64,000 bases of DNA. Source: Betaproteobacteria bacterium (lineage in GTDB: Bacteria > Pseudomonadota > Gammaproteobacteria > Burkholderiales > SG8-41). The notes under the pieces were generated by a model, which saw nothing but the letters and a program-made list of their open reading frames with translations, made no database searches and was not told the origin of the DNA. Shown here piece by piece: positions 22,276 to 34,967 of the stretch; within the stretch, counting starts at the first letter, position 1; each line of letters opens with the position of its first letter. The position numbers and the translations under genes are program-made. The stretch is taken from positions 62,001 through 126,000 of the forward strand of contig OMIN01000114.1 in the NCBI GenBank assembly GCA_900299145.1. Direction: 5' to 3'.

Positions 22276-23262
22276 TTATTTTCGGAACGACCTATCCAGC
22301 CCGCACAGCAAGGCATAGCAAACGTCGATCACCGGCGTGGGCACGTTGAGTTCCCGGCCAAACGCTTGGGTCTGGCCCAGTAGTCCATCGACTTCCAGCG
22401 ATTTGCCGGCGAGCGCGTCCTGCGCAGTCGAGGGGCGCATGCCGGGGCGGCCGCGCGCGCGTGAGACGATGTCTTCAGCGTTGATTTCCTTCGTGAGATC
22501 AAAGCCCAACCGTGCCGCCACCGCGACGGTTTCATTGATGATGCCTACCGCCAGCCGGGCCAGTCCTTCGTCGCTGGCGATCTGCGCCGTATCGAGACGT
22601 GTTAACGCGCCCAGTGTGTTGTTGGGCGCATTGCCGACGGCCTTGCGAAACAGTCCGCTGCGAATGTCGTTGGTGGCTTTGGTATCAATGCCCGAATCGC
22701 CCACGAGTTTCGCCACTTGCGCGAGCCGTGTGCTCGAAGAATTGTCAGGCTCGCCAAACACCCAGCGGTTTTGCACGGTATGTTTGATAATGCCCGGCGC
22801 GATGATGGCGTTGGGCGAGTAGGATACCGCGCCAATGACGCGCTCTGGGCGGATGTGCTTCCACAAACCACCGTCAGGGTCGAGCAGGGGCAGCGTGCCT
22901 TGTTTGCCGCGGTCACCACTCATGCCGTAATTGAACCACCACGGAATGCCGTTCAACAGCACCACCACCGTGCCATCGGGTTTTACCAGTTTGCCGATGG
23001 CCTCGGCGGCCGCGGGCAACATCTGTGCCTTCAGCCCCGTGAACACAATGTCCTGCGGCGGCAGCGACACGGGATCATCGGTGGCCGCGGCGGGCCTGCC
23101 GCCGATTTCCTTGCCGCCGGTTTGCAGGGTTAAGCCGCGCTCGCGAATGCCGGCCAGCATCGGGCCGCGCCCCACCAGCGACACTTCGCACTGCTTCGCG
23201 GCGATCAAATGTGCCGCAAGATGCCCGCCCAGCGCGCCGGCGCCGAAAACACAAACTTTCAT
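22276..23262 (-). CDS. Ketopantoate reductase-like (ApbA/PanE family) dehydrogenase
   Basis: An NAD(P)-dependent 2-ketoacid reductase-like protein of 328 residues. FGAGALGG at residues 6-13 is the cofactor loop, GLKAQML near 90 and NNTLGALTRLD with the catalytic-lysine region replaced in part follow. The C-terminal helical domain contains RPGMRPSTAQD. ApbA family members include PanE of pantothenate synthesis, but many paralogues act on catabolic 2-keto acids. AAGGAATT precedes the ATG. It sits 42 bp upstream of the broken cyclase gene on the same strand, so they may share a transcript. Confidence 0.83.
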   Translation of the reverse strand: MKVCVFGAGALGGHLAAHLIAAKQCEVSLVGRGPMLAGIRERGLTLQTGGKEIGGRPAAATDDPVSLPPQDIVFTGLKAQMLPAAAEAIGKLVKPDGTVVVLLNGIPWWFNYGMSGDRGKQGTLPLLDPDGGLWKHIRPERVIGAVSYSPNAIIAPGIIKHTVQNRWVFGEPDNSSSTRLAQVAKLVGDSGIDTKATNDIRSGLFRKAVGNAPNNTLGALTRLDTAQIASDEGLARLAVGIINETVAVAARLGFDLTKEINAEDIVSRARGRPGMRPSTAQDALAGKSLEVDGLLGQTQAFGRELNVPTPVIDVCYALLCGLDRSFRK

Positions 23263-23353: not shown

Positions 23354-24112
23354 ATGAAGCTGGCTGCGATTGCGAACAACACTGCGCGTGGCGTGCAGGT
23401 ATTGATTGTGCTGCTCATGGCCTGCGCGGCCGGCTTCGCGCGCTCGCAGACGCCGTTGCTGGTAGTCGAAACCACGCTGTCTGCCGGCCAATACGCTGCG
23501 TTTGCATTGGCGAAAGACAGCGCCAGTTTTTCACCCGATAGCGCCGAGAACAAAGACCTGCTCGACAAGGGCTTTGGCTTTCCGGTGAGTGTGCGGCGCG
23601 TGCTTGATGCTCACGTGCTGGCGCTGGCGCCCTCGGCGAAACTGCTGGTGCCGGCACCATTCGGTTGGCGGGCTTTTGACGATGGCAAGCGCGTGCGCTT
23701 GTTCACGCCCGCTGCCCGGGTGGGCATCGTTATCAACGCCACTCCGCTGGAAGGCTTTGAATCGTGGGACGAGACCCGCGAAGCAGTGTGGAAGCACGCG
23801 CGCGAGACCGCTGCAGCGCGCGCGAAAAAAGACCCGCGTTATCAGGCGCGCCTCATCCGGCTGGCGGATGGCGCGTTTGGCATGCGAGAAGCCAATATTT
23901 ACGACGGCGAGGATGATCCCTATTCGTCGGTGACACTATTCCGCCAGCACCCCGCCGACCCGCAAACCGCAATCCGTGTGAACCTGTTCGCGCCGGTGGC
24001 CGATTTTGAGCGCTATCTGGCGCTGGCCGCGCTGGTATTGCGGGACATGCAGGGTGCTTTTATGGCGCAGGGGCTGGACATGAATGTAGAGCGGATTCCT
24101 GTTCGGCCATAA
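23354..24112 (+). CDS. Exported protein of unknown function
   Basis: I do not recognise this family. It has 252 residues with a signal peptide (LIVLLMACAAGFARS). The body has no obvious catalytic motif. It has a helical stretch from about residue 145 (WDETREAVWKHARE) and a C-terminal LALAALVLRDMQGAF. It diverges from the ketopantoate-reductase-like gene with a 91-bp spacer and is followed by an AT-rich element 3 bases after its stop. Probably periplasmic. Confidence 0.7.
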   Translation: MKLAAIANNTARGVQVLIVLLMACAAGFARSQTPLLVVETTLSAGQYAAFALAKDSASFSPDSAENKDLLDKGFGFPVSVRRVLDAHVLALAPSAKLLVPAPFGWRAFDDGKRVRLFTPAARVGIVINATPLEGFESWDETREAVWKHARETAAARAKKDPRYQARLIRLADGAFGMREANIYDGEDDPYSSVTLFRQHPADPQTAIRVNLFAPVADFERYLALAALVLRDMQGAFMAQGLDMNVERIPVRP

Positions 24113-24115
24113 AAT

Positions 24116-24138
24116 GTCAATAAAAACAAATAGTTATA
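24116..24138 (+). repeat. AT-rich boundary element, copy 6
   Basis: CAATAAAAACAAATAGTTA then TAGAAT. It follows the preceding stop codon by 3 bases. Confidence 0.6.
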
Positions 24139-24382
24139 GAATTTCTTGGTAGCAACAGTCCTCCGCCGTCATTCTCGCTGCCCACGTATCCGATTTGGCC
24201 GCGAGTCAATTTCACCCAAGGGGGACAAGATACCGATGGAACCCGCCTTGCCAGCATTGGGCTCCCGGCGATTGACCCGTGGCACGCAATGAAATCGAAC
24301 GCATGACCACTTGTCCGGTTCCGTGCAAAAATCCCGAAAGTCATAAATTTGCGGCATTGCGAACGCGCAAAAAGGGTATGCG

Positions 24383-25465
24383 ATGAAGCAGGAAATCCGC
24401 TTTTGCACCAGCGCCGACGGTACGCGCATCGCCTACGCCCTGTCGGGTAAAGGGCCGCCGCTGGTGTTGGCCGCGAACTGGGTGACACACCTGGAGTACC
24501 AGTGGCTCAATCTGTCGTGGCGCGCATTGCTTGAGACGTTGTCGAAGCACTACACGGTGCTTCGTTACGACACACGCGGTTGCGGATTGTCGGACTGGAA
24601 CGTTGCGGACATTTCTCTTGACGGTTGGATCCACGATTTTGAGGCGGTGATTTCAGCCGCTGGCTTTGAGCGTTTTCCGATACTGGGCGTGTGTCAGGGC
24701 GGCGCCATTGCCGTTGAGTACGCGGTGCGGCATCCGGATCAGGTGACGAAGTTGTTTCTGCATGCCACGTTTGCGCGAGGCCGCTTAAAGCGCGCCGCCA
24801 CGCCGCGCGAGGTGGAACTCGTCAAGCTGCGCTACGAAGTGGCGCGCGCGGGCTGGGCGAACGAATCACACGCGTTTTTGCGTGCCTTTGCGGCGATGTG
24901 GCAGCCCGGCGGCAACGCCGAGCATCAGCGCTCATGGTGCGAACTGCAACGGGCATCCTGCACCGCCGAAACCGCCGTGCGCCACTTTCAACTGGCAGAC
25001 GATATGGACGTGCGCGACGCTGCGGCGCGCGTACGCTGCCCGACACTGGTCATCCATGCCGAGCAGGATCAAGTCGTGCCCGTCGAAGAAGGACGCCTGT
25101 GCGCCGGCCTGATACCCAATGCGCGCTACGTGCAACTGGAAAGTGAAAACCATCTGCTGCTGGAGAACGAACCCGCGTGGGCAAGATTTCTGGATGAACT
25201 GGCCGCGTTCATTCCCGCCACACCGCCTGCCCGCAAGCAGAAGCCCTTCTCGGACTTGAGTGCCCGCGAGGCCGACGTGCTGGAATTGCTGGCGCGCGGG
25301 CGTGATAACGCGCAAATTGCCGCGAGTCTTGACCTGTCGGAAAAAACCGTGCGCAACTACATCACGCGCGTATTCGACAAATTGGGTGTTGAAAACCGTG
25401 CACAAGCCATTGTGCTGGCGCGGGATGCGGGGTTTGGGGTGACGGGCGCCACTCTGGTGAAATGA
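24383..25465 (+). CDS. Alpha/beta hydrolase fused to a LuxR-type HTH, cysteine at the nucleophile position
   Basis: A fusion of 360 residues. Residues 1-275 are an alpha/beta-hydrolase domain: RYDTRGCGLSD, the nucleophile elbow LGVCQGGAIA with Cys104 instead of serine, and a histidine in ESENHLLL. Residues 292-350 are a LuxR/GerE HTH: LSAREADVLELLARG, IAASLDLSEKTVRNYI. It has no receiver domain, so the hydrolase domain is the likely sensor. The stop codon overlaps the start of the next, homologous gene (ATGA). The Shine-Dalgarno is weak. Ligand unknown. Confidence 0.85.
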   Translation: MKQEIRFCTSADGTRIAYALSGKGPPLVLAANWVTHLEYQWLNLSWRALLETLSKHYTVLRYDTRGCGLSDWNVADISLDGWIHDFEAVISAAGFERFPILGVCQGGAIAVEYAVRHPDQVTKLFLHATFARGRLKRAATPREVELVKLRYEVARAGWANESHAFLRAFAAMWQPGGNAEHQRSWCELQRASCTAETAVRHFQLADDMDVRDAAARVRCPTLVIHAEQDQVVPVEEGRLCAGLIPNARYVQLESENHLLLENEPAWARFLDELAAFIPATPPARKQKPFSDLSAREADVLELLARGRDNAQIAASLDLSEKTVRNYITRVFDKLGVENRAQAIVLARDAGFGVTGATLVK

Positions 25466-26580
25466 CTGCACAGGGTCAGCAAATTCGCTTCTGTACCACG
25501 CACGATGGCGTACGGCTCGCATACGCTACAACAGGCACGGGGGCGCCACTGGTGCGAACGGCCAACTGGCTGAGCAATCTCGAACACGAATGGGCGAATC
25601 CAATCCGCCGGCCGACGCTGGAGGCGCTTTCGCGGCATTTTTCGCTTTTGCGATACGACCAGCGTGGATGCGGTCTCTCTGACAGGGCCGTCAAGAAAAT
25701 TTCGTTCGAGGCGTGGCTGGATGACCTTGATACGGTAGTTAACGCCGCTGGTTTGCGCCGATTTTCGTTGTATGGCGCCTCGCAAGGATGTGCGATCTCG
25801 ATTGCCTACGCAGCGCGCCATCCTGAAAAGATCAGTCATCTTATTCTTTATGGCGGTTATGCATTAGGCAAACTCCGACGCGACCTTTCGAACCGGGAAA
25901 TTGAAGAAGCGCTGATGCTTCAAAAGATTATCGAACTCGGTTGGGGCAAGGAAAGTCCTGAGTTCAGGCAGGTGTTTACCACACAGTTTGTGCCGCAGGC
26001 CTCCGCGGACCAGCAGCGCGCCTTTGACGAATTTCAGCGCATGTCAACTTCGGCCGAGAACGTGGTGCGCATCGTTCGTGAATTTGACGAAATAGACGTG
26101 CGCGATCTCGCACGCAAGATTCGCTGCCCAACGCTGGTCTTGCATGCGCGCCACGATGGGCGGGTGCCGTTCGATGAAGGACTGAAGATGGCGGCGCTTA
26201 TTCCGGGTGCGCGCTTTGTAACTTTGGAAAGCCACAATCATCTGCTGCTTGCGTCGGACCCGGCGTTTCCGATGTTTGTTGATGAAGTGGTGCGTTTTCC
26301 GCATGAGCACACGCCCATAGCCGTCAATCCTGCTTCTGAAAATTCCCTGACAAATCTAACGGCCAGGGAACAGACTGTGGTGGAGTTGATTGCGCAAGGG
26401 CACGAGAATACTCGCATCGCCCAGACGCTCGGACTCAGCGAGAAAACCATTCGCAACTATGTCAGCAGCATCATGGATAAGCTCCAAATGACCGGGCGAT
26501 CACAACTCATTGTTTTTGCGAGAGAATCTGGCTACGGCTATGCGGCGGCGCAGACTGTTCGCCGGGACGCCAGTCCCTAG
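25462..26580 (+). CDS. Alpha/beta hydrolase fused to a LuxR-type HTH, serine nucleophile
   Basis: A tandem paralogue of the preceding gene, 372 residues. The hydrolase domain has RYDQRGCGLSD and LYGASQGCAIS with Ser107, so the catalytic elbow is conventional. The histidine is in ESHNHLLL. The LuxR HTH is at about 298-355 (LTAREQTVVELIAQG, TLGLSEKTIRNYV). The start ATG overlaps the previous TGA, so the two are co-translated. One may bind and the other cleave the same signal; this is inference. Confidence 0.86.
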   Translation: MTAQGQQIRFCTTHDGVRLAYATTGTGAPLVRTANWLSNLEHEWANPIRRPTLEALSRHFSLLRYDQRGCGLSDRAVKKISFEAWLDDLDTVVNAAGLRRFSLYGASQGCAISIAYAARHPEKISHLILYGGYALGKLRRDLSNREIEEALMLQKIIELGWGKESPEFRQVFTTQFVPQASADQQRAFDEFQRMSTSAENVVRIVREFDEIDVRDLARKIRCPTLVLHARHDGRVPFDEGLKMAALIPGARFVTLESHNHLLLASDPAFPMFVDEVVRFPHEHTPIAVNPASENSLTNLTAREQTVVELIAQGHENTRIAQTLGLSEKTIRNYVSSIMDKLQMTGRSQLIVFARESGYGYAAAQTVRRDASP

Positions 26581-26672
26581 TTTTGCCTCTTTGGCAGTGC
26601 AAATGTTGTACGCGCTGGGACAGCCGCCTCTTGTTGGCTGGTTCGCGGGAGCCTGATACTGAACACACTGAT

Positions 26673-26692
26673 ACCGCACATGGTTGTGCGGT
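26673..26692. promoter_or_regulatory. Hairpin or operator-like palindrome
   Basis: ACCGCACA, loop TGGT, TGTGCGGT: a perfect 8-bp inverted repeat 31 bases before the methyltransferase ATG. There is no U-run, so a terminator is unlikely. It may be an operator for the upstream LuxR-type proteins or a leader hairpin. Confidence 0.35.
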
Positions 26693-26722
26693 CGGGGCGC
26701 GAGGAAATCAGGGGGAATCGCC

Positions 26723-27529
26723 ATGCCAGACATCTATGCCACCATCCATCAGCAACCACGCGATGTCGTGGAAACCTTGGCGCGCGCAATGGAAGCCCGC
26801 GCCGCTTCGCCGCAACAACGGGCGATGCTCGAAAAATACCTGTCCGATGTTGTTTTTCCAGACAAGGCGCGAGTACTGGAAATCGGCTGTGGCGCCGGAC
26901 CAATCGCCGAGGTTCTGGCGAGCTGGCCGGGTGTCACGTCGGTCACGGGCATTGACCCCTCGCCCGTGATGATCGAGAAGGCGCGGGAACTGCGCGGGCA
27001 CATCAAGAACCTGTCATTCCGGGAAGGCGATGGTAGGGCGTTGCCGTTTGGGGATGGCGAGTTCGACGTGGTTGTGATCCATACGGTGCTGTGCCATGTG
27101 CCGCAGCCGGAGCGTGTTTTGACCGAAGCATTTCGTGTATTGCGCCCGGCGGGCCAGCTTGCCGTGTTCGACGGCGACTATGAGACGATTTCGGTCAGCA
27201 TTCATCAGCATGACCCGCTGCACGCCTGCGGCGAGCACGTCAAGGCGTCTTTCGTCAACGACGTGTGGCTGGCACGCAAGTTGCGCGCGATGATCGCTGC
27301 AAGTGGCTTTCAGGAAGCTGGATTCGCCAGCCATGGCTATTCCGAGACCACGGAGCCAACTTACATGCTAACCATAGTGGATCGCGGCGCGGATGGTCTC
27401 GTGAAGGATGGCGTGATCGGCAATGAACTCGCCGAGGCGCTGAAGGCCGAGGCCAGACGGCGGGTTTCGCAGGGCCGGTTCTTTGGCCATATTGGTTTTA
27501 CCAGTTTGATTGCGTGCAAGCCAGGTTGA
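26723..27529 (+). CDS. SAM-dependent methyltransferase
   Basis: A class I methyltransferase of 268 residues. The SAM loop is LEIGCGAGPIAEVL near residue 55, the acidic contact is GIDPSPVMIEKA, and motif III-like DVVVIHTVLCHVPQPERVL follows. The C-terminal 110 residues probably form the acceptor site. GGGGGAAT precedes the ATG; an earlier in-frame start lacks this. It lies 143 bp after the second hydrolase-LuxR gene and may be its target. Acceptor unknown. Confidence 0.85.
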   Translation: MPDIYATIHQQPRDVVETLARAMEARAASPQQRAMLEKYLSDVVFPDKARVLEIGCGAGPIAEVLASWPGVTSVTGIDPSPVMIEKARELRGHIKNLSFREGDGRALPFGDGEFDVVVIHTVLCHVPQPERVLTEAFRVLRPAGQLAVFDGDYETISVSIHQHDPLHACGEHVKASFVNDVWLARKLRAMIAASGFQEAGFASHGYSETTEPTYMLTIVDRGADGLVKDGVIGNELAEALKAEARRRVSQGRFFGHIGFTSLIACKPG

Positions 27530-27580
27530 CAACCAGTCGCTGGTATTCCTGAAAGTCATATTTGCATAGAAGGAGACAAA

Positions 27581-28399
27581 GTGAACCCCAAAACGTTTAA
27601 GGAACTTGAGCGCGCCGGGTGGGTGGCCAAGGCTTGTGCTTACGACGATTGGTTTGCCACCATCACAGACCAGGCGATCAAACCCATTCTCGACAGTTTC
27701 GGTGATTTGGCGCAAAGGCGGCTGCTTGATGTAGCGACCGGTACCGGCCACATCGCCGGGGCCGCTGCTGCTCGCGGCGCGGATAGCCAGGGGATTGATT
27801 TTGCCGCCGCGATGGTGGAAAGGGCACAGAGCCTCCATCCGGGTATCGCTTTTCGTGATGGCGATGCCGAACAACTGCCCTATGCGGACGCGAATTTCGA
27901 TGCGGTGACCTGTGGTTTCGGATTACTTCATATGGCCCATCCTGAGCAGGCCATCAGGGAGGCAGGCCGTGTGCTGAAGCATGGCGGCCGATACACGTTT
28001 ACCGTCTGGTGCAGTCCTGAGCAGGGCGGGCAATTTTTCGGGCTGGTTTCAGCAGCAGTTCAAAAACATGGCACGTTGAACGTGCCCCTGCCGCCTGCGC
28101 CGCCCATGTTCCGGTTCGCCGATCCCGCCGAGTGTGGGCGCGTATTGACCGAAGCAGGGTTTGCTGATTCTTCGCTGACGGTTTTGCCGCTCACCTGGCG
28201 AACGCCTCGTGCCGAGGATGCCTTGGAATTGATCTACAAGAGCGCGGTGCGTATGCCAATGCTGCTGGCGGCGCAATCCTCCGAGGCGCGCGAAGCGATT
28301 CATCGTTTGATCCTCGAAGAAGGTGAAAAACTCCGGATTGGCAGCGACATAGAATTCAAATTTCCAGCTGCCATGGTGACTGCGCGGAAGGTACGCTAG
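27581..28399 (+). CDS. SAM-dependent methyltransferase
   Basis: A class I methyltransferase of 272 residues starting with GTG after AAGGAGACAAA. The SAM loop is LLDVATGTGHIAGAA near residue 49, with QGIDFAAAMVERA and FDAVTCGFGLLHM following. It belongs to the UbiE-like branch rather than being close to its neighbour at 26723. The 51-bp gap suggests one transcription unit. Acceptor unknown. Confidence 0.85.
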   Translation: MNPKTFKELERAGWVAKACAYDDWFATITDQAIKPILDSFGDLAQRRLLDVATGTGHIAGAAAARGADSQGIDFAAAMVERAQSLHPGIAFRDGDAEQLPYADANFDAVTCGFGLLHMAHPEQAIREAGRVLKHGGRYTFTVWCSPEQGGQFFGLVSAAVQKHGTLNVPLPPAPPMFRFADPAECGRVLTEAGFADSSLTVLPLTWRTPRAEDALELIYKSAVRMPMLLAAQSSEAREAIHRLILEEGEKLRIGSDIEFKFPAAMVTARKVR

Positions 28400-28854
28400 C
28401 GCGTGACGCGATACATTGTTGACGTTGACGGCCGGCACTCCGGCATCGACGCAAGACAAGATCGGTTTTGCAAATGCTTTCGACGTTGCTCGCGATCTGC
28501 TTGATGCATTGGCTGGCGCTAATCACTCCGGGAGCAAAGGGTTTATGCAAGGCAACAAGGGCTTCTCTGCCGCATCGCGGGCGCGGTGGTCGGAGCATTC
28601 GCCGAACGGCTGATTGTGTCGGTCGCTGGCGACATGCTCGCCTATTGGTAGATGTAATCAGCGGGAATACGGAAATATTGCGAGCGCGGGGTGGGCCATG
28701 TATTGAATAAGCGCGAACGCGGCACTGACCCCGTCCCGAGGCCTACGAACGTTGACCCGTCGCCGAGAGGCGATTCTCGCCGACGCCGGCTCAACCACGA
28801 CTGGCGGTTCACTAACGCCAGCCTAACCCCGACCGGCAATGCACTTACGCCGGC
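28400..28854. other. Decayed spacer
   Basis: A 455-bp stretch without an intact gene. It contains a likely LysE-type remnant (28474-28640) and, at about 28775-28870, three degenerate repeats resembling ACGCCGGCCTAACCCC. Base use here looks random in all frames. Confidence 0.5.
28474..28640 (+). pseudogene. Possible LysE/RhtB-type exporter remnant
   Basis: One frame reads LSTLLAICLMHWLALITPGA, the first membrane helix and PG motif typical of LysE-family exporters. After a shift, another frame reads IAGAVVGAFAERLIVSVAG, a second hydrophobic segment. No continuous gene remains. The match is short and rests on my recollection of the family. Confidence 0.35.
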
Positions 28855-29613
28855 CTAACCCCTGCCGGCGTAGGGCATCTTAGTCGCCATCACCATGAGG
28901 TGATAAATGTTCACTTCCGGCGGCTGGTTTGCCATAAACAGCACCGAGCGCGCGACGTCTTCGCAAGTGATCATCGGCTCGGGGGCGACCGTGCCGTTGG
29001 CCTGCTTCACGCCTTTCGCCATGCGCGAGGCAAGGGTGGACATGGCGTTACCCACGTCCACTTGGCAGCAGGCGATGTCGTATTTGCGGCCATCCAGAGC
29101 GATGGTGCGGGTCAGGCCCGATACGCCGTGCTTGGTGGCGGTGTAGGGCGCGGAATCGGGGCGCGGCACGTGCGCAGAGATCGAGCCGTTGTTGATAATG
29201 CGCCCACCGCGCGGCGTCTGATCCTTCATGATTTTGTAGGCTTCCTGCGAGCACAGGAACATGCCGTTAAGGTTTGCATCGACCACGGATTTCCACTTTT
29301 CCCATGCCAGGTCCTCGAACAAAATACCCGGCGCGTTGCCGCCCGCGTTGTTGAACAGCACGTCGACGCGGCCGAATGCGGCCATGACTTTGCTGAACAG
29401 ATTCTTCACTGCCGCGGGGTCGCCCACATCAGTGGGCACGCCGATCATGCGCGAGCTGTCGACACCTGCTTCCTTGATGGTTTCGTCAAGCGGCTCGGCG
29501 CGGCGGCCGCTGATCGCCACGCGATAGCCGTCCTTGACGAACGCAAGCGCGCAGGCCTTGCCGATACCGGTGCCGCCGCCAGTGATTACCGCAACTTTAT
29601 CGTGGGATGCCAT
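28855..29613 (-). CDS. Short-chain dehydrogenase/reductase
   Basis: A classical SDR of 252 residues. TGGGTGIG near residue 11, NNAGGNAPG near 90, serine in NNGSISAH, and YTATK near 158 make a complete active site. A long insertion-like segment ([17 protein letters not shown]) precedes the C-terminus. GGAGATAG is before the ATG. It begins 25 bp after the UGSC selenoprotein gene on the same strand, so it probably belongs to that operon. It differs from the two SDR-fold proteins in this window that lack YxxxK. Confidence 0.88.
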
Positions 29614-29638: not shown

Positions 29639-30169
29639 CTATTCTTTAAGCTGTCTGGCAGCCTGATCTGCAAAGGTGAGCGTCAGCGCGCGCATATCGT
29701 CCGCCGACAGATTGCTCACCGGGTGCGGCATTTCAACATAAGCGTGGCCTTCCATGCCCTTGCTTTTGAACTGGAACACGGCGGCATTGCGAAACGCGCT
29801 GGTGATGATGGTGGTCGCCGGGATGCCGCGCTTTTCGAATTCGATGGTGTCGTGCACACTGCACAACGTGCAGGACCCTCACCCGCCCAGCGCGGCAATG
29901 GCGACGTCCACCTCCTTCGCCATGTCATCGATCAGCGCATCGGTGGCGGGCTTGGAGTAATGCTCCTTGCGTTTGATCACCACGCGCGCCACGCCGTATT
30001 TTTCCCGCAATGCCTGACCCAGCGTTTCGAGAATCAGTGTGCCCTGTTCCTTGGTGTTGTCGAGGAGACCCACCACCTTGCCCGCGAGATCGGCGGGGCG
30101 GGGCGCGAGCGGCACGCGTGCGCGGCCCGTGCCGGCGGTGGGGTCGATGAAACCGAGTTCTTCGGACAT
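29639..30169 (-). CDS. UGSC-family selenoprotein (in-frame TGA read as selenocysteine)
   Basis: Read through a TGA at 29879-29881, this gene encodes 176 residues. The TGA is codon 97 and falls in AALGG-U-GSCTLC, the U/C-G-S-C motif that defines the UGSC (seleno)protein family. Sequence is collinear on both sides: GKVVGLLDNTK and VVIKRKEHYSKP before, HDTIEFEKRGIPATTI and HPVSNLSADDMRA after. A second cysteine (Cys103) is three residues past Cys100. The start at 30169 has AGGAAAAC upstream. A hairpin that could serve as SECIS follows the TGA. It lies between a conserved unknown gene and an SDR, with 25-bp gaps. Biochemical role unknown; probably redox or nucleophilic. Confidence 0.85.
29850..29866 (-). 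promoter_or_regulatory. Candidate bacterial SECIS hairpin
   Basis: Starting 13 bases after the TGA, TTGTGCA pairs with TGCACGA (one G-U pair) around the loop GTG. The loop begins 20 bases past the TGA, close to the spacing in E. coli fdhF. A competing hairpin, CTGCAC/GTGCAG with loop GTT, lies at 29859-29873. Folding has not been computed. Confidence 0.5.
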
Positions 30170-30194: not shown

Positions 30195-31211
30195 TCATAC
30201 AGTGTAAGTGCCGTGAACGGCACGGCTGCCGCCGCCCCAGCCGTGGCAGATGGCGGTGAGCGGCCCCCAGCCCCCGGCGACGATGAGATGAAGATCGCGC
30301 GCATCCTTGATCACCGGCACGAAGCGCTCGTCGTCTTCGGGGTCGATATTCAGCGCGCGCGCCCGTTCCGGCCGCCAGTTGCCGCCACCCTTGAGATCGC
30401 GCACGCGGCGCCCCGCGTGTTTGATGAGCCACGCGTGCACGTCGGCACGGTGCATGCCGGCTTTCGCGCAGATCGTGGCATGTTCCGGCCCCATCGCCAC
30501 GACCATATCGGAGCGCACGTGCTGGTTCCACGAGCACATCGCGCTCATCGAATCAGCCAGGCCCGTGAGCAGGCGTTCCGGCGTTAGACTCGCATCGTCA
30601 TAGCAAAGGCGCGGGCTTTCCACCATGGCGCAGGTGATGGTGTTTTCATCGGACGCGTGGCCGCGTGCGGCGGCAATCGTTTCCCACGGGCTGCGTTCGG
30701 TGTTTTCGGTGAGGCACGCGGTGTAGCGCAGCGGCGTGGAAAACACCGTGGCCGAGGCCACACCCGGAATGCCGCCGCCGAGATTGAGTAGCATCAACCG
30801 TATCGCGCGGCCGATGGTGGCGTTGGCGCGAAAGCCGGGGCCGAAGCAGCCGTTGCCGCCGTGGATGCCGATTTTTTGGGCGTAAGGGCCGTTGACGATC
30901 ATCAGCGGCGCTACGCCGTGCATGGTGCCCTGCACGCCATTGAGATTGAATTCCTCGCGCAGCATGAGCGTGATGCCGCCGAGCACCACGGGCAGGTATT
31001 CCAGCTTGCAACCCGCCATTACCGCGTGAATCGCGACCGTGCGCACGGTGGCCGGCTCCATCGCGGGCGGAATGTTGCCGATGAATTCATCCGGCGCGCG
31101 CGTGGTGCCGGTGAGCATGCGGGCCACGCGTGCCTCGGTGGGCGTGACCACCGGCAGGCCGTCGGACCAAGCCTTTTCGAGGAAGAACTCGAATTCGTCT
31201 ACGGCGGGCAT
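30195..31211 (-). CDS. Conserved protein of unknown family linked to the UGSC selenoprotein (copy 1)
   Basis: A protein of 338 residues with no signal peptide. I recognise the sequence type (DGLPVVTPTEARVARML, VMAGCKLEYLPVV, NGCFGPGFRANATIGRA, AICHGWGGGS) but not a named function. Conserved Cys are at about 68 and 122 and near the C-terminus. It is a close paralogue of 31363-32406. It is 25 bp upstream of the selenoprotein gene. Its ATG follows an AT-rich element without a clear Shine-Dalgarno. It may be a partner or companion enzyme of the selenoprotein. Confidence 0.78.
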   Translation of the reverse strand: MPAVDEFEFFLEKAWSDGLPVVTPTEARVARMLTGTTRAPDEFIGNIPPAMEPATVRTVAIHAVMAGCKLEYLPVVLGGITLMLREEFNLNGVQGTMHGVAPLMIVNGPYAQKIGIHGGNGCFGPGFRANATIGRAIRLMLLNLGGGIPGVASATVFSTPLRYTACLTENTERSPWETIAAARGHASDENTITCAMVESPRLCYDDASLTPERLLTGLADSMSAMCSWNQHVRSDMVVAMGPEHATICAKAGMHRADVHAWLIKHAGRRVRDLKGGGNWRPERARALNIDPEDDERFVPVIKDARDLHLIVAGGWGPLTAICHGWGGGSRAVHGTYTV

Positions 31212-31362: not shown

Positions 31363-32406
31363 TCACGGCAAATCATACGTCCCATGCACCGCCTTACTCC
31401 CCCCACTCCACCCATGACAAATCGCCGTGCAAGGCCCCCAGCCGCCGGCGACGATCAACTGCAAATCCTCCGCTGTCTTGATCGCGGGAATAAAGCAGTC
31501 ATCGTTGTCCGGATCGAGCTGCGCAGATGGCGCATAAGGCGCCATCGCCCGCACGCGTTCCGGCCGGAAATTGCCGCCGCCCTTCAGATCACGCACACGC
31601 CGCCCCGCGTGCGCGACCAGCCACGCATGCACATCCGCGCGGCTCATGCCGGCCCTGGCGCAAATCGCCGCATGCTGCGGCCCCATCGCCACAACCATAT
31701 CCGAGCGGGCGTGCATGTTCCACGAGCCCATCGCGACCATCGAATCAGCAATGCCGGTCAGCAGCCGCACCGGTTCATCGCTCACGTCGTCGAATGACTG
31801 GCGCGGGCTTTCCACCATGGCGCACGTGATGACGTTGTCGGTGGGCGCGTAGCCTTTCGACAAGGCCAGCGATTCCCAGGGCGATTTTTCGAGGTTCTCG
31901 GTAATGCACGCGGTGTAGCGCAGCGGCGTGGCAAAAATAGTCGCCGAAGCCACGCCCGCCATGCCACCGCCGAGATTCAGCATCATCAGCCGGATCGCGC
32001 GGCCAATCGACGCATTGGCGCGAAAGCCGGGGCCAAAGCAGCCGTTGCCGCCGTTAAGCCCGATGCTCTGCGCGTAAGGGCCGCTCACGATCATCAACGG
32101 CGCAGCGCCATGCATGGTGCCTTGCACGCCGTTCATGTTGAATTCCTCGCGCAGCATCAGCTGCAACGCGCCCAGCACCACTGGCAGATATTCCGGCTTG
32201 CAGCCTGCCATCAGCGCATGGATCGCCACCGTGCGCACGGTCGCGGGTTCCATCATCGGCGGAATGTGGCCGATCAGCTCATCCGGGTCGCGCGTTGTGC
32301 CCGCGAGCATGCGTGCGACGCGTGCCTCGGTGGGCGTGACAACGGGCAGGCCGTCGGACCACGGTTTCTCGAGGAAGAATTCGAATTCGTCTACTGAATC
32401 GGCCAT
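31363..32406 (-). CDS. Conserved protein of unknown family (copy 2)
   Basis: A 347-residue paralogue of 30195-31211, sharing DGLPVVTPTEARVARML, GGNGCFGPGFRAN, CAMVESPR and the GGWGPCTAICHGW tail. It has about ten extra residues before the C-terminal domain (APYAPSAQLDP). Its ATG overlaps the stop of the HTH gene upstream (TGATG), so the two are coupled. Duplication followed by insertion of a REP and an AT-rich element in the spacer explains the arrangement. Function unknown. Confidence 0.78.
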   Translation of the reverse strand: MADSVDEFEFFLEKPWSDGLPVVTPTEARVARMLAGTTRDPDELIGHIPPMMEPATVRTVAIHALMAGCKPEYLPVVLGALQLMLREEFNMNGVQGTMHGAAPLMIVSGPYAQSIGLNGGNGCFGPGFRANASIGRAIRLMMLNLGGGMAGVASATIFATPLRYTACITENLEKSPWESLALSKGYAPTDNVITCAMVESPRQSFDDVSDEPVRLLTGIADSMVAMGSWNMHARSDMVVAMGPQHAAICARAGMSRADVHAWLVAHAGRRVRDLKGGGNFRPERVRAMAPYAPSAQLDPDNDDCFIPAIKTAEDLQLIVAGGWGPCTAICHGWSGGSKAVHGTYDLP

Positions 32407-32702
32407 CAGCGTCCTGCTTGCGCATGTAATTTCAAGCCCAACGCCCCCACCACCTTGAGGATCGTGTCAAAACCCGGACTGCGTTCACCGGACAGAGCTT
32501 TGTAAAGACTTTCGCGCGATAGTCCGGCGTCCTTCGCAACTTGTGACATGCCTTTGGCGCGTGCAATATCACCAAGCGCCTTGGCGATAAACGCCGCATC
32601 GCCGTTCGCTTCTTCGATGCAGGCTTCGAGATAGGCCGCCATTTCCTTCGGGGTTCTCAAATGCTCCGCCACATCGTAGCGGGTGGTGGTGGTTTTACGC
32701 AT
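32406..32702 (-). CDS. HTH antitoxin-like protein (HI1420/HigA type)
   Basis: A DNA-binding protein of 98 residues. The N-terminal part, LRTPKEMAAYLEACIEEA, and the HTH, MSQVAKDAGLSRESLYKALS, match the antidote proteins encoded after HI1419-type toxins. The C-terminus VGALGLKLHAQ is typical. A truncated toxin frame ends 3 bases upstream. Its stop overlaps the next gene's ATG, which is unusual for an antitoxin and suggests it may now regulate the downstream operon. Confidence 0.8.
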   Translation of the reverse strand: MRKTTTTRYDVAEHLRTPKEMAAYLEACIEEANGDAAFIAKALGDIARAKGMSQVAKDAGLSRESLYKALSGERSPGFDTILKVVGALGLKLHAQAGR

Positions 32703-32990: not shown

Positions 32991-33893
32991 TCACGCAGCA
33001 ACCAACTCCGGCCAATACAGCCGCGTGGGGTTATCTACCAGAATTTTCTTACGCATCGCCTCGTCGTCGCAAAACTTCGCGAACAAATCGACCAGTTCGC
33101 CGTCGTTCGGCATGTAGGTCGCGTTCGGGTGCGGAAAATCCGTGCCCCACAACAGTTGATCCGGCGCGGCGGCGATCAACTCGCGCACAAACGGCTCGGC
33201 GTCGTGAAACGGTTTGCCGGTGGACGAAATGCGTTCCGGCCCGCTGATTTTGGTCCACGCCAGCGGGTTTTTCATCAGATCGAGCATTTGCTGAAACGCC
33301 GCCTGCTTGACGCCATGTTTGGCTTCGGGGCGGCCCATGTGATCGATGATGAACGGCACTTTGAGGCCGTCGAGAAACGCGCGGTATTGCGTGACTTCGT
33401 GCGCATCCATGTGCAACTGGATGTGCCAGCCGAACGGCGTGATGCGCGCGATCACTGCGTCCACCGCCTTCATGTCCGGTGCGCCGCCCAGATGCGCGAC
33501 AAAGTTGATGCGTGCCCCGCGCACGCCGCCCGCGTGCAGCCGCTCCAGTTCCTTGTCGCTGACGTCCGGCTTGACCATGGCGACGCCGCGTTGCGTGCCG
33601 TTCGAATGCGCAATGGCATCCAGCAGGGCGCTGTTGTCGGTGCCGTGGCAACTGGCCTGCACAATAATGGCGCGGGTGAAGCCTAGGTGCTTATGCAGTG
33701 CGGCCAGCCGCTCGCGCCCGGCGTCTTCTGGTGTGTAGCTGCGATTGGCGGCGTACGGGAACTTTGCCGCCGGGCCGAACACGTGGCAATGGCCGTCGCA
33801 GGCATTGGGCGGCGGTACGTACCTGGGTTTAACAGGATTCGGGTCGGGCGGCAGTATGCTGCGCGGCGTGCCGGGGGTGTTGGCGGTGCTCAT
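32991..33893 (-). CDS. Amidohydrolase_2 family hydrolase, pyrone-dicarboxylate-hydrolase-like
   Basis: A TIM-barrel metal hydrolase of 300 residues. CDGHCHVFGP near residue 33, HMDAHEV, IDHMGRPEAKHG and WGTDFPHPN are the metal and proton-relay positions of the LigI-like (2-pyrone-4,6-dicarboxylate hydrolase) group. The reaction is likely opening of a cyclic ester or lactone. It is preceded on the same strand by a receptor gene 33 bp away, consistent with uptake followed by hydrolysis. No signal peptide. Confidence 0.87.
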   Translation of the reverse strand: MSTANTPGTPRSILPPDPNPVKPRYVPPPNACDGHCHVFGPAAKFPYAANRSYTPEDAGRERLAALHKHLGFTRAIIVQASCHGTDNSALLDAIAHSNGTQRGVAMVKPDVSDKELERLHAGGVRGARINFVAHLGGAPDMKAVDAVIARITPFGWHIQLHMDAHEVTQYRAFLDGLKVPFIIDHMGRPEAKHGVKQAAFQQMLDLMKNPLAWTKISGPERISSTGKPFHDAEPFVRELIAAAPDQLLWGTDFPHPNATYMPNDGELVDLFAKFCDDEAMRKKILVDNPTRLYWPELVAA

Positions 33894-33926: not shown

Positions 33927-34886
33927 TCACAGTCGGGGTATCTTCGTTTTGTCGATCAACGCGTTCCACTTGGCGATTTCGCTGGTGACAAAAACGCGCA
34001 TGCCTTCCGGCGTGTTGAGATTTTGCTCAATGCCCAGATCGGTAAAGCGTTGCTTGACCGCGGGCGCGTTGACGGCGGCATGCACTTCTTTGTTCAACCG
34101 GTCGACGATGGCGCGTGGCGTTTTGGCTGGCGCGCCGATGCCGTTCCACGAAATCACGTCATAGCCGGGCAGGCCCGATTCGTCGAGCGTGGGCACGCCG
34201 GGCAACGGTGCGAAGCGGGTTTTGGAAGTCACCGCCACCACGCGCAGCGCACCCGCGCGTATTTGCCCCAGCACTGGCGGCAAGAACTCGAACGCCACCT
34301 GTACGTCGCCGCCGCGCAGTGCGGCGATCAGCGCGCCGGTATTGTTGAACGGCACATGCGTGTGGTTAAGTCCCGCCATCGATTTGAACAATTCCGCCGC
34401 CAAGTGCTGCGCCGTGCCGAGGGCGATGGTGGCGGAATTGAATTTGCCGCTCGAACGCGCCAGGGCGATGAGCTCTTTGGTGGTTTTTACCGGCGATTCC
34501 GGCGCCACCAGAACGCCCGCGCTGAACGAGGCGATGGTAGTGACCATGGCGTAATCCTTGAGCGTGTCGTAAGGCAGCGCCTTGAACATCGCCATGCTCA
34601 CCGCGTTGGCGTTGTTGAGCAGCATCAGCGTGTAACCGTCTGCTTCGGCGCGCGCCACCATTTCCGCGGCCACCACGCCGCCCGCGCTGGGACGGTTATC
34701 AACAATGAATTGCTGCCCCATGGCCTCGCCCATTTTTTGTGAAACGGTGCGCGCGGTGAGATCGCCCACGCCGCCCGGGCCGAAAGGCACCACCAGACGG
34801 ATGGGCTTGGTGGGATAGGCCTGCGCGGCGGCTGCAAGCGGACAGAGCGCGAGGAGTGCACAACAACCGATGGCTGGAAATTTCAT
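33927..34886 (-). CDS. Bug/TctC-type receptor
   Basis: A 319-residue receptor. The signal peptide ends LAAAAQ and the mature start is AYPTKPIRLVVPFGPGGVGDLTAR; DNRPSAGG follows. An ATG seven codons upstream (34907) would give an unneeded polar extension. Same-strand linkage to the LigI-like hydrolase suggests a cyclic di- or tricarboxylate ligand. It diverges from a cupin gene across an 81-bp spacer. Confidence 0.87.
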   Translation of the reverse strand: MKFPAIGCCALLALCPLAAAAQAYPTKPIRLVVPFGPGGVGDLTARTVSQKMGEAMGQQFIVDNRPSAGGVVAAEMVARAEADGYTLMLLNNANAVSMAMFKALPYDTLKDYAMVTTIASFSAGVLVAPESPVKTTKELIALARSSGKFNSATIALGTAQHLAAELFKSMAGLNHTHVPFNNTGALIAALRGGDVQVAFEFLPPVLGQIRAGALRVVAVTSKTRFAPLPGVPTLDESGLPGYDVISWNGIGAPAKTPRAIVDRLNKEVHAAVNAPAVKQRFTDLGIEQNLNTPEGMRVFVTSEIAKWNALIDKTKIPRL

Positions 34887-34967
34887 GAAGGCTCCGCCGG
34901 CAGGCATAGTGCCGGGTGGCGGCGATTATAATGCCGCTGCAAACGCGAACCCATCATGGAGATGCTC

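Follow-up and report, generated by a model that had tools for sequence, protein, structure and literature searches.

A UGSC selenoprotein gene, its partner protein and its many paralogues in a betaproteobacterium: probable selenium-dependent reductases

The window analysed here is a stretch of 64,000 nucleotides (nt) from a Betaproteobacteria bacterium (assembly GCA_900299145.1, contig OMIN01000114.1, positions 62,001 to 126,000). Its contig, C114, belongs to a 5.51-Mb genome of 158 contigs that is 99.69% complete. The window carries a gene of the UGSC family with an in-frame TGA, and our data strongly support the view that this is a working selenoprotein gene. It is one of 19 such genes in the genome, which probably form a family of selenium-dependent reductases. 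Judging from the sequences, we lean towards the reading that UGSC and a partner protein encoded next to it make up a two-part selenoreductase, which would resemble PrdB/GrdB, would be fed by thioredoxin and would have paralogues serving different catabolic operons.

The UGSC gene (Table 1) comprises 177 codons, for 176 residues and a TAG stop. Its only in-frame TGA lies in the context VAIAALGGUGSCTLCSVHD, where U stands for selenocysteine (Sec). An earlier note on this DNA had described a single gene broken only by the TGA at codon 97, and the translation and both family profiles agree with this. PF24696 covers residues 8-175 (E 2.6e-51, 174.6 bits, cut-off 25), and NF041046 scores 138.1 bits (cut-off 125); by these profiles, membership of the protein in the UGSC family is confirmed. 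The window gene is an ordinary member, with a near full-length match and the same U-G-S-C motif and Sec codon, and what is unusual is the copy number per genome and the near-constant partner.

Searching the whole genome with PF24696 gave 19 matches, each with exactly one in-frame TGA, which is found at the homologous codon in all of them. The motif is UGSC in 13 copies, UGTC in two, UGAC in two, UGGC in one and UGSS in one. The selenoprotein proposed in the earlier note was borne out, while the 18 further TGA-bearing UGSC genes of the same genome had been overlooked. The genes for selenocysteine insertion, whose presence the earlier note had made a touchstone of its reading, were all found: selA (568.6 bits, cut-off 267.9), selB (442.7 bits, cut-off 242.25), selD (422.6 bits, cut-off 125) and tRNA-Sec (74.5 bits, cut-off 47; anticodon tca according to ARAGORN). 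SelD also carries an in-frame TGA, in GGGUGCK. On contig C110 a UGSC fusion gene is followed, on the opposite strand, by selA and selB, then by a gene that resembles thioredoxin reductase and encodes a CADC motif, and finally by tRNA-Sec.

For comparison with other genomes we used loci that contain a relative of the partner (the best 80 of 582 confirmed ones, found by one short peptide pattern, which makes this a sample and no census). A UGSC match is near 70 of these 80 loci, and the best match per locus has U at the Sec site in 65, C in four and G in one. The earlier expectation that family members carry Sec or Cys at this position holds for 69 of the 70. A lone in-frame stop could always be an error, but TGA is found in 19 of 19 paralogues and at 65 of 70 UGSC-bearing loci elsewhere, and the sel genes are present in the genome. 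In addition, TGA serves as an ordinary stop codon at the end of 10 of the 19 own UGSC genes, which argues that the genetic code as such is unchanged. We consequently give next to no credence to the explanations that the TGA is a sequencing error, a pseudogene stop or a codon reassigned to another amino acid.

The UGA is followed by a hairpin that resembles a selenocysteine insertion sequence (SECIS). In the family it consists of 8 base pairs and a GUN loop, with the stem beginning 14 nt beyond the U of UGA; in the window gene, GUUGUGCA-GUG-UGCACGAC spans 14-32 nt after this U. We compared 88 Sec sequences (19 own and 69 from other genomes; L085 and an L079 fragment were skipped, and four Cys rows were kept apart). 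On average 6.92 of the 8 stem pairs were present; 500 shuffles of synonymous codons averaged 4.94 and did not exceed 5.31. The loop starts with GU in 78 of the 88. Covariation was counted in 69 of these sequences (65 distinct), and the count leans towards the hairpin, since in 11 of the 19 excluded rows the stem is weak or shifted (L033, L037-L043, L086 and the first copies of L117 and L079); the remaining 8 were omitted merely for a shorter list. Within this selection 93.5% of the cells were paired, compared to 14.2-52.5% for slid structures, and 36 cells were changed on both sides of the stem, compared to 15.4 in shuffles. At one stem position the 65 distinct rows are split between G-C (34) and C-G (31). 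The distance from UGA and the G that opens the loop agree with the bacterial SECIS consensus given in PMC13188914. These data suggest that the window gene combines a SECIS element after its UGA with the Sec machinery of its genome.

The partner encoded next to the window UGSC, listed in the earlier note as a conserved unknown, is probably the second half of the system, because 9 of the 19 UGSC copies in this genome carry a homologue of it in the same chain. Residues conserved in the partner include Cys68 in a MAGC motif, Glu169 and Trp176. Eight further copies have an adjacent partner gene, so that 17 of 19 are paired. Conversely, a partner profile detects 20 genes in the genome (21 rows, as one gene is split), 18 of which occur with UGSC. 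The association is visible in the gene order itself; that both proteins act as one enzyme in a physical complex is what we infer from the sequences. The 80 loci from other genomes span Rokubacteria, Chloroflexi, Nitrospinota, Alphaproteobacteria, Gammaproteobacteria, haloarchaea and others. They include two metagenome-assembled genome (MAG) records with UGSC-partner genes (L052 and L098) that are titled Bordetella parapertussis, labels that look doubtful. The two partner proteins of the window matched no NCBIfam family, 18 partner rows had no credible match in Pfam, and searches of PDB sequences with UGSC and with the partner profile yielded nothing credible.

A fusion selenoprotein of UGSC with a conserved domain named Unknown_1 was described in the Global Ocean Sampling (GOS) data (PLoS Genet 2008, PMC2398784, seen in part), and Unknown_1 presumably corresponds to the partner domain. 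The one-chain form is the same as in the 9 fused own copies, whereas the window encodes UGSC and partner in two neighbouring genes and has the partner twice. Another fusion with Sec is located near insertion sequences on the conjugative IncP plasmid p2-T1 of Acidovorax sp. T1 (L166, 8640-11300). Its deposited annotation halts at the UGA and reads 'hypothetical protein', and its partner end looks cut. A fusion at L085 (2017-3726) has Gly in place of Sec or Cys (GEGGNPTAK), and this copy is perhaps inactive or re-purposed.

Besides UGSC, the genome encodes another type of Sec enzyme, which resembles PrdB/GrdB and has U157 in a UPNC motif (L163, 1201-1962, minus strand). Together with six plasmid-borne PrdB or GrdB-like proteins it formed a set of seven sequences, and hhalign of the UGSC profile against this set gave a probability of 84.3 (P 7.3e-6), with Sec placed on Sec and the second Cys of U-x-x-C aligned as well. 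As controls, the partner profile was aligned to the same set (P 0.13) and the UGSC profile to a short-chain dehydrogenase/reductase (SDR; P 0.61). PrdB/GrdB (PF07355) and UGSC share the U-x-x-C ahead of a helix. They differ in that the alignment leaves the first ~80 residues of PrdB unmatched, and the two systems differ in that the partner is not PrdA by sequence. When the window protein was run against Pfam, PF24696 was the only family listed and PF07355 was not matched. UGSC is likely to be a distant relative of the Sec subunit of D-proline and glycine reductases, as the profile alignment indicates.

The AlphaFold model of the window UGSC protein (mean predicted local distance difference test score, pLDDT, 93.9; predicted template modelling score, pTM, 0.86) has alternating strands and helices, and places Sec97 just ahead of a helix in an open alpha/beta domain. 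The natural fusion from L112 was modelled with pLDDT 92.9 and pTM 0.91. In the accessible part of the 2008 GOS paper (PMC2398784) UGSC was guessed to be a generic thiol oxidoreductase of thioredoxin-like fold, a function that would comprise antioxidant action or disulfide exchange with the partner as redox client. The U-x-x-C motif, as in thioredoxins, fits this view, but the predicted fold is not thioredoxin-like: the model lacks the beta-alpha-beta-alpha-beta-beta-alpha core with its thioredoxin-type beta hairpin. Among the matches listed by Foldseek and VIA the folds were mixed, with flavodoxin, receiver and Rossmann-like folds frequent and all scores modest. Thioredoxin chains were absent from the 50 listed matches of either search, which alone proves nothing. 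Moreover, 19 divergent paralogues, many of them in gene clusters of their own, suit substrate specialisation better than housekeeping. We regard a generic thiol oxidoreductase as quite improbable.

Hints at the electron donor came from plasmids. A search of 72,556 plasmid records with the window protein gave UGSC in 15 (E 1e-5), and the neighbourhoods of six of these were inspected. The gene order is trxB-trxA-partner-UGSC on a plasmid of Arthrobacter sp. ERGS1:01 and partner-UGSC-trxB on one of Roseovarius sp. THAF8. In Variovorax boronicumulans an FAD oxidoreductase with similarity to trxB is encoded two genes ahead of a UGSC protein whose length is that of a fusion. All three are Cys versions of UGSC. 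A plasmid of Paracoccus versutus has a trxB-like gene ~6 kb from UGSC, and at the Acidovorax and Natrinema plasmid loci no trx gene was found near it. In the own genome, locus L038 (7648-12173) has a TrxB-like gene with CADC that is flanked by selB and tRNA-Sec and faces a UGSC fusion gene. For glycine reductase, PMC3519856 gives thioredoxin as electron donor, which would be in line with the trx genes next to some copies of UGSC.

A thioredoxin-fed reductase would be the best-supported mechanism on the present sequence evidence. The SECIS hairpin after UGA97 would direct SelB and tRNA-Sec to insert selenocysteine. The UGSC product would then be the catalytic selenol subunit and the 338-residue partner the other part of the enzyme. 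Sec97 would attack a substrate held by the partner and become oxidised, as in PrdB/GrdB; Cys100 of U-x-x-C would resolve the oxidised Sec97 as a selenenylsulfide, which a thioredoxin reductase/thioredoxin couple would re-reduce. This proposed cycle of attack, selenenylsulfide formation and re-reduction is derived from the distant homology and from the trxB and trxA genes beside some copies. Each paralogous pair would probably serve a different catabolic operon, and the substrate of the window pair may be an intermediate handled together with the amidohydrolase, the SDR and the ketopantoate-reductase-like dehydrogenase of the cluster.

Alternatively, UGSC may activate or repair the partner enzyme, or carry a sulfur or selenium group to it, without turning over a substrate of its own. 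Close pairing and fusion would look the same in this case, and there was a modest fold match to 8s7v_H, a chain from the activation complex of methyl-coenzyme M reductase, with Z 11.1 and a root mean square deviation of 2.7 over 126 aligned residues. This Z value is tied with those of a de novo design and other unrelated folds, and the distant similarity to PrdB, being centred on the Sec site, favours a catalytic subunit. We consider the role of an activator or carrier unlikely, and prefer that of a catalytic subunit in a two-part reductase.

UGSC genes are numerous in related bacteria as well. In an order-wide sample, in which at most eight candidates per genome were scored, 44 of 399 genomes had a UGSC match, 41 of them over the cut-off. 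When all candidates were scored, the numbers of matches were 18, 18, 14 and 25 in four genomes of the same genus, 26, 24 and 19 in three from a different family of the order, and 58 in G263, which belongs to the family of the own genome. All eight of these genomes have selB above the cut-off. In G263, a single TGA is the only stop within 51 of the 58 matches (these 51 include at least one partial match), three have a TGA plus another stop, and four lack a TGA. The best 30 of the 58 all have the TGA inside the motif and a partner in the same stretch. These 30 and the 19 own copies were combined in a tree of 49 rows, in which the copies of both genomes interleave: the genome label changes 10 times, and well supported branches force at least 7 of these changes. 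Clustering of the labels is nevertheless stronger than in shuffles, where they change 15.3 times on average; this is partly due to the restriction to the best 30 rows of G263. The interleaving indicates old subfamilies rather than strain duplicates. Contamination or strain mixing was considered as the source of the 19 copies and rejected, since the paralogues are very divergent and interleaved with those of G263. As the largest bacterial sets of selenoprotein genes, PMC13188914 names those of an Olavius symbiont (57 or more) and of a Methylomirabilota MAG (63), and about 50 copies of one family in one genome fall in this range. A table of PMC5029168, which was seen in part, gives 26 and 33 for UGSC, numbers that we take as organisms and sequences.

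The genes on either side of the window UGSC gene are separated from it by 25 bp, as the earlier note had stated, and lie on the same strand. The note's suggestion of an operon around the selenoprotein is supported by locus L046 of an uncultured betaproteobacterium, one of the ten closest loci, where the order TctC, amidohydrolase, partner, UGSC, SDR and ketopantoate-reductase-like gene is the same. Identities to L046 are 67% for TctC, 74% for the amidohydrolase, 73 and 79% for the partners, 80% for UGSC, 82% for the SDR and 57% for the ketopantoate-reductase-like protein. The amidohydrolase resembles 4-sulfomuconolactone hydrolase, with a score below the cut-off of that model. In the window a plus-strand block (23354-28710) parts the SDR gene from the ketopantoate-reductase-like gene, which adjoin in L046; judging by names read from the sequence, it holds two alpha/beta-hydrolase/LuxR-type regulators and two methyltransferase-like genes. 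A gene for an HI1420-type antitoxin (32406-32702) lies within the cluster and shares one base with the beginning of the second partner copy.

Table 1. Features of the UGSC cluster in the window
Feature	Position	Strand	Basis
UGSC selenoprotein gene, 176 aa with Sec97	29639..30169	minus	translation with TGA = U; PF24696, NF041046
UGA codon, predicted to be read as selenocysteine, codon 97	29879..29881	minus	TGA kept at homologous site in paralogues and other loci
SECIS-like hairpin, 8-bp stem GUUGUGCA/UGCACGAC, loop GUG	29849..29867	minus	pairing and covariation
Partner protein, 338 aa, no Pfam/NCBIfam family	30195..31211	minus	homologous to C-terminal domain of UGSC fusions
Second partner copy, 347 aa, 78% identical to first	31363..32406	minus	sequence comparison
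SDR-family dehydrogenase, probable operon member	28855..29613	minus	82% identical to UGSC-adjacent gene in L046
Amidohydrolase (Amidohydro_2)	32991..33893	minus	syntenic in L046
TctC solute-binding protein	33927..34907	minus	syntenic in L046
Ketopantoate-reductase-like dehydrogenase	22276..23262	minus	directly downstream of SDR in L046; Pfam result is that of the L046 homologue

At other loci the neighbour families, named by Pfam on one representative per cluster, include MmgE/PrpD, CoA-transferase III, thiamine pyrophosphate enzymes, TauD and luciferase-like proteins, each at two to five of the 80 loci. The variety of these families suggests that the UGSC system appears in many settings. TctC proteins are expanded in the own genome (at least 150 matches from 707 candidates), and TctC was rejected as a functional link on account of this number.

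Several observations weigh against a thioredoxin-fed, two-part selenoreductase of PrdB/GrdB type. With regard to decoding, in 8 of the 19 own copies the register of the hairpin allows only 2-5 stem pairs (these 8 have other hairpins, each with a G early in the loop), and the four Cys homologues still keep 5-7 of the 8 pairs. The 66-nt stretch of the window folded alone was no more stable than shuffles (z 0.09). The kinship to PrdB became weaker when the UGSC profile was aligned to the single own PrdB-like protein (P only 0.032), and PF07355 was not among the 20 Pfam families listed for 44 UGSC members (E up to 10); for these two reasons we call the kinship likely, short of demonstrated. Partner profiles aligned to three PrdA sequences gave P values of 0.42 and 0.27, and no similarity was seen by sequence. 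The proposed resolving residue, Cys100, is Ser in the own copy L033 and in L071 and L086, and L085 has Gly at the Sec site. Pairing is not universal: two of the 19 own UGSC copies have no adjacent partner (C76, C89), two of the 20 own partner genes stand without UGSC (C145, C78), and so do 10 of the 80 partner loci elsewhere, some of which are at contig ends. As to the donor, relatives of trxA or trxB were found at none of the 80 loci of other genomes (flanks up to 4 kb) and not in the window, and L038 is the only own-genome UGSC locus with a trx relative. Finally, at all of the ten closest loci (L045-L054) except L046, no relatives of the SDR, the amidohydrolase or the ketopantoate-reductase-like protein were found in the examined stretch, neighbours differ greatly between loci elsewhere, and the presence of TctC tells little as it is so common in the own genome.

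The UGSC family, its Sec and a fusion are already published. The copy-number scale, the near-constant pairing and the link to PrdB did not turn up in the literature that was searched, in which subscription papers were mostly missing. UGSC is among the commonest selenoprotein families in ocean surveys, with 8.2% of selenoprotein genes in one of them, and a 2026 review counts it among the selenoproteins with largely uncharacterised functions, as far as the accessible parts of both sources go. With a near-constant partner, a possible electron donor and a likely mechanistic relative named, UGSC offers a well-defined pair of proteins for purification and testing. A wider proposal, which we put forward tentatively and with some doubt, is that UGSC and its partner constitute a separate class of thioredoxin-fed selenoreductases, sister to proline and glycine reductase with an unrelated substrate subunit, and that radiation of this class in certain Burkholderiales has placed it in dozens of catabolic clusters per genome. 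If this is true, those Burkholderiales would be among the most selenoprotein-rich bacteria known. The 19 TGA-bearing copies of the own genome, or the approximately 51 of G263, would go against the picture, found in the accessible parts of the literature, of selenoprotein-rich bacteria as mostly anaerobes of other groups.
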